DNA of 64,000 nt from Synoicihabitans lomoniglobus (GTDB taxonomy: Bacteria > Verrucomicrobiota > Verrucomicrobiia > Opitutales > Opitutaceae): assembly GCF_029023725.1 (NCBI RefSeq), contig NZ_CP119075.1, positions 4,397,501 to 4,461,500 on the forward strand, read 5' to 3'. Below are positions 1,122-2,521 of this stretch, piece by piece (position 1 is the first letter of the stretch; the number at the start of each line of letters is the position of its first letter). The translations under genes were made by a program, and so were the position numbers. The notes below the pieces were generated by a model. The model ran no database searches, was not told where the DNA came from, and worked only from the letters and a program-made list of their open reading frames with translations.

Positions 1122-1216
1122 CGATCGTGCGGTGAGCTCTTATTCTTGGAAGAGCCAACTCACACGGTTCCTGTGCAAATTCCACCCGTAGCAACTGTCT
1201 TATTAAGTATGGAATT

Positions 1217-2152
1217 TTAAGCGGTCACCGCAGGGGCGTCGGCGAGGATGCGGTTGAGGAAAATGACGAGTTTGCGAGCGACGGCGATGTAGGCGACTTT
1301 AGCGGGTTTACCGGCTTGGCGAAGGCGTTGATAGTAAGGTTGCAGATACTCGTTGTGTTGGGCGGCGACGACGGCGGCCTGATACAGTGCTCGTCGAACG
1401 TGGGCGCGTCCGTGAGCGATATGTCGGTGGCCACGCATGGTGCCGGAGTCGTGGTTGATCGGGGCGAGTCCGCATAGCTTGGCGATTTGGCGGCGGTTGC
1501 ACTGGCCCAGTTCGGGCAACTCGGCGACCAGCATCCACGAGGTCTTTTCCGCGACCCCGCACACCAAGCAAAGGGCTTGCATGCGTGCGGCGATGGGCGC
1601 GGCGGCGGCGGTGTCGAGCAGTGCGCGCAATGCGCGTTCGGCTTTGGTAATATCGACGTCGATACGCTCGATGTGCTGTTGGCACAGGCGTTGGGCCGCA
1701 GCGTCGAGCTGCCGAGCTCGGCACTGCCACGCTTTGCGGTCTTCGACCAAGCTTGAGCGCACGACCAGTAAGTCACGCATCTTGCGCAACACCTTGTCGG
1801 GCATGATGGTGAGAGCGGGATTGAGGCACTTGCCATAACGCTCCAGGACCTCGGCGTCGACGGCGTCAGTCTTCTCCAAGCGTCCCACCGAACGGGCAAA
1901 ATCCCGCACATGGCGTGGGTTGATCACCGAGATGGGGATGTGTTGTTTGGTGGCCGCCTGCTGGAGCGCATGGTGGCAACGACCGGTGGCTTCACACACC
2001 AGGTGCACGCGGGGATGGGTTTGGCGCAAAGTGCGCAAATGCGCCACGAGGATCGCGTCGCGGTTGGGGACCGGAGTGTTCGGAGCGGAGGAAAAGTTCA
2101 GCGTCTGAGCGCTGACATCGACCCCCAGATAGTGGATTGCGGAAGGATTCAT
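1217..2152 (-). CDS. IS110-family transposase (DEDD recombinase)
   Basis: A 311-residue protein with both IS110 domains. The N-terminal RuvC-like DEDD domain shows YLGVDVS (D12), LVCEATG (E54) and KTDAVDAEVL (D96 and D99). The C-terminal Tnp20 domain shows GVAEKTSWML, LCGLAPINHDSG and GRAHVRRALYQAA, containing the serine used for strand exchange in this family. All four acidic residues and the DSG serine are present and the frame is uninterrupted, so the enzyme looks intact and potentially active. In the family it acts with a bridge RNA encoded in the element. The ATG start at 2152 gives a full-length N-terminus. Confidence 0.93.
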   Translation of the reverse strand: MNPSAIHYLGVDVSAQTLNFSSAPNTPVPNRDAILVAHLRTLRQTHPRVHLVCEATGRCHHALQQAATKQHIPISVINPRHVRDFARSVGRLEKTDAVDAEVLERYGKCLNPALTIMPDKVLRKMRDLLVVRSSLVEDRKAWQCRARQLDAAAQRLCQQHIERIDVDITKAERALRALLDTAAAAPIAARMQALCLVCGVAEKTSWMLVAELPELGQCNRRQIAKLCGLAPINHDSGTMRGHRHIAHGRAHVRRALYQAAVVAAQHNEYLQPYYQRLRQAGKPAKVAYIAVARKLVIFLNRILADAPAVTA

Positions 2153-2340
2153 ACTCTGCCTTGTTTTTGACGGGCTCGGTGCGAACCGGCCCCAGCAACT
2201 GTTCGAGTTAATCGACCAAAACTCCGGCGGCTCACGCTACGATCGAACTGCCCGCGTTTAAAAACGTGGGCGTTCAAGGAGCGCGACGAGCTCACCGGAG
2301 CCGATCCACCGGGGCGGCCGCCCCGGTGGATCATCCCGCT
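2153..2340 (-). ncRNA. Candidate IS110 bridge-RNA region upstream of the transposase
   Basis: The segment 5' of the transposase has no good coding frame and folds strongly. An outer stem pairs 2222-2227 (CTCCGG) with 2295-2300 (CCGGAG). Inside it a hairpin at 2245-2275 has 4-bp and 10-bp stem segments separated by one unpaired base, one non-Watson-Crick position, and a 2-nt loop. A perfect 30-bp palindrome lies at 2303-2332. In IS110-group elements such as IS621 the bridge RNA is transcribed from this position and carries internal loops pairing with target and donor DNA. Position and folding support the call; I did not identify the guide loops. The 30-bp palindrome could instead be a genomic REP sequence outside the element. 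Confidence 0.45.
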
Positions 2341-2521
2341 TTACCCACGGAGCGAACAGACCAACCCCGTGAACAAAACCGAACAGCCCCCACCATAGCA
2401 TATTTTAAGCAACAAGGAGCGCGCTGGCGCGCGATCCCCACCTGCCTCTCGTCTCCAGCGTTCCGCGTTCAGCCTTCCGCATTCAGCGCGAGCAAGCTCG
2501 CAGCCTACCTTGGAATCCGAG
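2341..2521. other. Intergenic stretch with small palindromes
   Basis: No convincing gene. It contains GCGCGC-TG-GCGCGC near 2419, a run of related words (CGTTCCGCGTTCAGCCTTCCG and ATTCAG) around 2460-2490, and GCGAGC-AA-GCTCGC near 2489. Such pieces look like degenerate interspersed repeats left between the insertion sequence and the ThuA-like gene. No transcription signal was recognised. Confidence 0.4.

Follow-up and report, generated by a model that had tools for sequence, protein, structure and literature searches.

The stretch of DNA analysed here, which we call the window, is 64,000 nucleotides of contig NZ_CP119075.1 of Synoicihabitans lomoniglobus, and near its beginning, behind an aldolase gene (araD), it carries an insertion sequence whose features are collected in Table 1. 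The transposase matches the profiles PF01548 (DEDD_Tnp_IS110) with 57.4 bits against a cut-off of 29 and PF02371 (Transposase_20) with 63.9 bits against a cut-off of 21.3, and alignment with the IS621 recombinase places D12, E54, D96, D99 and D235-S236-G237 at the expected positions, S236 being the DSG serine, in agreement with the residues that a first-pass annotation of this DNA had named from the letters alone. In the 5.93-Mb host genome the protein has a single match, the element itself. The genome also contains three further DEDD-domain loci above cut-off, in longer open frames (455 aa), which the tnpA protein search did not retrieve. With that single protein as query, no close relative was found in the genomes of named species, and relatives in genomes of the same family are 48% (G094), 48% (G068) and 43% (G102) identical.

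Table 1. Features of the IS110-group element and its insertion site (positions within the window).
Feature	Position	Strand	Basis or remark
Whole IS110-group element, one core included	1192..2416	-	1225 bp; six-copy G102 relative and own-genome REP-like repeats matching up to base 2415
Left-end core dinucleotide CT	2415..2416	-	six-copy relative and REP-like repeats
Non-coding left end encoding the predicted bridge RNA	2153..2414	-	ends and fold
Perfect palindrome, 30 bp	2303..2332	.	position of the bridge RNA 5′ stem-loop, abutting the target-binding loop
Target-binding loop (predicted)	2222..2302	-	long outer stem, internal loop, inner hairpin; predicted fold and pair counts in 4 elements
Left target guide CGCGCTCCT	2277..2285	-	9/9 with left flank plus core
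Right target guide CGTAG	2237..2241	-	complementary to CTACG of core plus right flank
Donor-binding loop (predicted)	2153..2208	-	conserved with covariation
Left donor guide ACAGTTGCT	2194..2202	-	identical to the element's right end plus core
Right donor guide AACAAG	2160..2165	-	complementary to CTTGTT, the first 6 left-end bases
tnpA, 311-aa DEDD/Tnp recombinase	1217..2152	-	ORF, Pfam profiles, IS621 alignment
Short right end	1192..1216	-	25 nt non-coding, terminating in AAGACAGTTG
Right-end core dinucleotide CT	1190..1191	-	six-copy relative and REP-like repeats
Host REP-like repeat entered by the element	2415..2435	+	empty copies are GTAGGAGCGCGCTGGCGCGCGAT; tail split by the element

Because the element is without a second copy in its own genome, its ends were set by two other routes. 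The 43%-identical relative is present in six copies in G102, and the alignment of these copies is near-identical from CTTGTTG to GTTGCT; one of them (L042) has an empty repeat in its right flank, CCCCTACTGCGGG, which identifies the core as CT. The minus-strand ends of the element in the window are the same as those of this relative, with CTTGTTGC at 2416-2409 and AGTTG-CT at 1196-1190. The second route lies in the host genome, where three partial matches of the flank cease to be similar at base 2415; the two that were read (L056 and L057) have GCGCGCTC-CT-AC and continue as GCGCGCTCCTAC, which is the left flank, the core and the right flank joined. Taken together, the six-copy relative and the host repeats that stop at 2415 place the element at 1192-2416 and not at 1140-2345, the extent first proposed, in which 1140-1189 is host flank and from which 71 left-end bases (2346-2416) are missing. 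What stands of the earlier description of an apparently intact IS110 element is the open frame, the catalytic residues and, now added, a core at both ends; the corrected boundaries contain the whole of 2222-2332, the segment whose exclusion would have counted against the bridge RNA. A non-coding left end of 262 nt against a right end of 25 nt, and a CT core at both ends without a long target duplication, are the layout of the IS110 group.

The place of the element behind the aldolase gene, for which the first-pass annotation had sought a reason, is explained by the REP-like repeat that sits there. The pattern GCGCGCNNGCGCGCTCCTAC occurs at 107 sites in the host genome at two mismatches or fewer (a count that includes the element's own split site), 16 of them exact, compared with 3 for the reversed pattern, and several copies are arranged as inverted pairs whose starts are 60-75 bases apart. 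A second copy (GCGAGCAAGCTCGCAGCCTAC) at 2488-2508 on the plus strand of the window opposes the one that bears the element, so the element occupies one half of an inverted REP pair. The host genome has 18 matches, some of them partial, to Y1_Tnp, a transposase family linked with REPs. A second element end was suspected at a REP copy that has CTTG in place of CTAC (own genome, 4193990), and this site proved to be without an IS end. The copies of the G102 relative likewise lie in REP-like repeats, and REPs are described as targets of such insertion sequences in the available text of two papers (PMC1525189; PMC11208160). Other IS110 relatives (L029, L034, L037, L078, L080 and L098) are located immediately or almost immediately behind CTCTGCG or CTCCGCG, and these sequences look like a further common intergenic repeat that serves as a target. 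In five genomes of the genus (L059-L063) no orthologous empty site was found behind the aldolase gene, the flank matches there being of chance size (10-15 bases); neither flank has a recognisable counterpart in them, and the insertion is therefore not datable.

The left end is predicted to fold, from its outer end towards the gene, into a 5′ stem-loop, a target-binding loop and a donor-binding loop, an order that is characteristic of the IS110 group and that is read here from structure prediction with partial covariation. The outer CTCCGG/CCGGAG stem with its nested hairpin, noticed at the outset, turns out to belong to one structured domain at 2222-2302. This domain also contains the complementarity to the flanks whose absence would have spoken against a bridge RNA: CGCGCTCCT, 9 nt, equals the 7 left-flank bases next to the core together with the core itself, and CGTAG, 5 nt, is complementary to the core plus ACG, with the two target guides on opposite sides of a single predicted internal loop. 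The donor loop extends up to the tnpA start codon. In this donor loop, 8 consensus pairs are kept over 11 elements and 3 of the 8 have changed on both sides. For the target loop, examined in 4 elements, the outer helix has changed on both sides at 7 of 18 pairs and 84% of its cells are paired, and over the whole structure, which was itself derived from one of those four elements, 70% are paired, against 31-52% when the structure is slid; the inner helix is only 52% paired. The covariation score of the target loop was reached by 2 of 500 shuffles, and the count of pairs changed on both sides by 86 of 500. When 15 elements were folded singly, the close ones (L009, L010 and L038) took the same layout and the distant ones varied. 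An Rfam scan of 1000-2600 gave three matches, all below the gathering cut-off, and no family above it.

How specific are the guide matches? The left guide matches the window's own flank at 9 of 11 positions, a value equalled by none of 34 swapped flanks, and over 35 elements, one per genome, own flanks match on average at 7.9 of 11 positions and swapped ones at 7.2, which is a modest excess; the left guide of L010 does not fit (7/11). The right target guide carries little weight alone, since in the window it is only 5 nt long, is similar in several elements, and 15 of 16 swapped flanks match the window RNA as well as its own does. As the swap test of the left guide was only modestly positive, joint and fixed-place tests were used. 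A joint score of left and right guides, compared with 1500 CT sites drawn from the window, was significant (p ≤ 0.05) for 12 of the 17 elements with both ends known, giving a combined Fisher value of 1.8e-13 that is too optimistic because several of the 17 are related. The window itself has p = 0.045 in a scan without fixed register, and with the register held to ±4, a register that was picked after the match had been seen, 19 of 5706 CT sites in the window score as high.

On the donor side, the variable letter before GTTG is the same in the RNA and in the right end in 16 of 17 elements (C/C in 10, A/A in 5 and T/T in 1), a set in which L016 and L020 share one RNA, and the sole mismatch is G102. 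In L016 and L020 the left end starts with CTGGTA and not CTTGTA, and the RNA carries TACCAG and not ACAAG. Over 35 elements, an exact reverse complement of the first 6 left-end bases lies within the last 60 nt before the gene in 13. Apart from the L010 left guide, the G102 donor letter and the short right target guide, the guides match target and donor as expected for the IS110 group, and the guides for target and own ends, together with the predicted fold, support the original proposal that the structured upstream region encodes a bridge RNA.

The nearest well-described system is IS621 of Escherichia coli, which the element resembles in belonging to the IS110 group, in its long left end, CT core and REP target, and in the order of 5′ stem-loop, target loop and donor loop (PMC11208160 and PMC11208158). 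The left end of IS621 (L113) begins with CTTGT and its right end finishes with ACAGTAT-CT, where the window has ACAGTTG. The two differ in that the transposases are only distantly alike and well separated in a tree, in the sequence of the REP and of the guides, and in the 5′ stem-loop, which in IS621 is 28 nt with two mispaired positions and in the window is a perfect 30-bp palindrome. The IS621 copy in L113 (E. coli NZ_CP151045.1) shows, at 1530-1862, a tandemly duplicated left end, the duplication taking in the 5′ stem-loop and a portion of the target loop. The same-family elements of G094, G068 and G102 share the kind of ends, the CT core and the loop order, and differ in guides, targets and palindromes, the G068 element having no palindrome of at least 10 in its left end. 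ISPpu9/ISPpu10 and ISPa11 are also insertion sequences that insert in REPs (PMC1525189 and PMC8450116, available text), in other hosts and other REPs, and ISPa11 is of the IS1111 family according to the available text of PMC11187229.

We are therefore highly confident in reading the locus as an intact IS621-type insertion sequence of the IS110 group whose left end encodes a bridge RNA guiding insertion into a REP-like repeat. The ends, the core, the REP site, the guide matches and their conservation in relatives are shown at the level of sequence, the fold of the bridge RNA is predicted, and circle formation, expression of the RNA from the junction and strand exchange would follow by analogy with the published IS621 mechanism. 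On this model the left end would be transcribed into a bridge RNA composed of the 5′ stem-loop (the palindrome), the target-binding loop and the donor-binding loop; a recombinase loaded with this RNA would recombine the junction of the circle (right end-CT-left end) with a CT of a REP-like repeat in the host, a CT selected where CGCGCTCCT and CGTAG pair with the two target strands.

Of the other readings of the locus, that of a decayed, inactive element in which the guide match is a relic is unlikely. It would account for the single copy in the genome, and no orthologous empty site in the five genomes of the genus dates the insertion; yet the open frame and the catalytic residues are intact, both cores are present, and guides and ends still match, although intactness is no proof of activity. 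It is very improbable that the upstream structure serves only as a 5′-UTR control of tnpA, for example of its translation, with the protein choosing the target. ISPpu9, a REP-targeting insertion sequence, does have a structured tnp 5′-UTR that controls translation, in the available text of PMC8450116, and the donor loop of the window reaches the tnpA start codon, but a role in control alone predicts neither guide matches to both sides of the target and to both ends nor that the donor letter agrees in 16 of 17 elements. One segment could nevertheless serve both purposes. An IS1111-group element with its RNA in the right end, which would share the transposase superfamily, can be dismissed, since no more than 25 non-coding bases make up the right end and the RNA structure is found upstream of the gene, not downstream.

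Within the bridge RNA reading, the least expected feature is the palindrome, which the first-pass annotation had measured correctly and whose length was reached in 0 of 100 dinucleotide shuffles of the 330-nt region. A strictly perfect palindrome of 26-34 nt is present in 13 of the 57 unique upstream regions examined first, and in each case 0 of 100 shuffles reached its length. The set was enlarged to 80 unique regions from 116 loci (116 of 118 had enough upstream DNA), and in 27 of these, the window included, the best hairpin is a near-perfect palindrome of 24-34 nt with at most one G-U pair, 25 of the 27 being 30-34 nt long; a further 23 regions are without a stem of at least 7 and 30 have another kind of hairpin. 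The letters of the palindromes are mostly unrelated between elements, with a few related elements sharing the outer arms. In a tree of 74 transposases, whose deepest forks are without support, the 27 carriers are spread over many branches as the tree is drawn, with non-carriers interspersed.

The tips are palindromic as well. Of the four-base hairpin loops in the 5′ zone, 28 of 56 are palindromic (GGCC 16, TGCA 6, CATG 2, GCGC 2, GTAC 1, GATC 1), where about 1 in 16 is expected by chance, as against 0 of 4 in the zone of target and donor loops. A first survey, which admitted stems of at least 4 and any loop length, had found palindromic tips in 17 of 87 hairpins of the 5′ zone, 0 of 54 of the middle zone and 1 of 48 of the donor zone. 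G-U pairs account for 6 of 364 pairs in the palindromes; among the remaining pairs predicted for these regions, some of which are surely mispredicted, they number 309 of 2503.

Outside this lineage, 22 plasmid or E. coli loci have no strictly perfect palindrome of at least 20 inside the left end. In L206 such a palindrome is situated past the left-end motif, and palindromes of 26-38 nt interrupted by two mispairs are present in L207, L213, L217 and IS621. A set of loci from named genomes was built by keeping 80 of 403 found, of which 61 were usable after 12 near-duplicates and 7 loci without a gene start or enough upstream DNA had been dropped. Real perfect palindromes of 32-34 nt occur in 4 of the 61: two in Verrucomicrobia, one of them the same as that of L114, one in Acetobacteraceae and one in Peregrinibacteria. 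Four-base loops in this set are palindromic in 7 of 18 cases in the 5′ zone, where three of the seven belong to elements counted above and one to L246, itself doubtful, and in 1 of 3 in the other zone, a small control that is not clean. Two candidates were set aside as not real: a run of N in L261, and a 274-nt perfect palindrome centred on GGCC before the IS110 gene of L246 (Azospirillum MAG, JAIXPD010000073.1), which probably arose when the assembly wrongly folded back on itself at a genuine but shorter palindrome. Within the loci sampled, the long palindrome is mainly, not exclusively, a feature of the phylum Verrucomicrobiota.

Variation among copies in one genome is informative here. G221 contains six copies of one element (L166-L171), 91-99% identical in pairs over the aligned part, and their palindrome exists in two versions, GGGGAGGGGCGGACGGCCGTCCGCCCCTCCCC in two copies and GGGGAGGGGCGTCCTGCAGGACGCCCCTCCCC in four. 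The versions differ at six bases, which form three mirror pairs, all compensated, one of them within the four-base tip; the probability that six changes placed at random in 32 bases pair up like this is about 2e-5. Elsewhere in the aligned left end (columns 45-290), eight columns vary. In the alignment the palindrome version is not linked to two neighbouring single-base differences, which points to recombination between copies or to repeated change, and in several of the copies the transposase matches are split or interrupted. Strict upkeep of the palindrome is contradicted by an uncompensated change in one of three G839 copies examined, by one uncompensated outer base between L118 and L068, and by a mispair common to the five G840 copies examined. 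In G102 the palindromes are identical in all six copies.

Since the bases of the tip cannot pair with one another inside the hairpin, covariation there needs another cause, and the possible causes considered were pairing of one RNA molecule with another, a constraint that acts on the dyad in the DNA, and mutational copying of one arm onto the other. That the perfection of the palindrome is unrelated to bridge RNA function, arising from a mutational process such as template switching between the arms or from a DNA dyad or cruciform, is a serious contender to which we give somewhat less than an even chance. The scarcity of G-U pairs speaks for it, as a constraint on RNA alone would tolerate them, and so do the two fully compensated versions among the copies of one genome in G221; against it stand the fixed place directly before the target loop, which is that of the IS621 5′ stem-loop, and the narrow range of lengths. 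About 120 bases from a Y1_Tnp (REP-type) transposase match in the host genome lies a stretch (L055, G000:C1:4052199-4052240) that is 88% identical to the left end of the element; the similarity starts shortly before the palindrome and is lost halfway through it.

A more speculative proposal, which we consider rather unlikely, is that IS110 bridge RNAs dimerise through their self-complementary 5′ stem-loop, so that the target loop could come from one RNA and the donor loop from its partner. The tips in this lineage (GGCC, TGCA, CATG, GCGC, GATC and GTAC) are palindromic while their letters change. For four such palindromes the predicted dimer is 17-19 kcal/mol lower than two hairpins, compared with a gain of 13.7 kcal/mol for the IS621 stem-loop and 7.4 for the hairpin of the window's target loop, and any palindrome gains in this manner. 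In the available text of PMC11208158, the IS621 5′ stem-loop is conserved in structure, diverse in sequence and invisible in the map, removing it reduces RNA binding and, slightly, recombination, and the target and donor loops in the complex probably come from two RNA molecules. In that text and the available text of PMC11208160, "palindrom" is used only for REPs or in references and "kissing" is absent, and a literature search whose scope left out most subscription papers and bioRxiv found no paper on an IS110 element with a perfect palindrome or on a kissing loop of a bridge RNA.

Overall, the IS110 group gains an ordinary, well-supported new member whose predicted bridge RNA can be read. 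In this natural predicted bridge-RNA system the target can be read as well: it is an abundant repeat of the host, and this accounts for where the element inserted. The palindrome is a lead on a little-understood part of the bridge RNA that may surprise specialists, and its covariation, which extends through the tip, would be compatible with a connection between two bridge RNAs.
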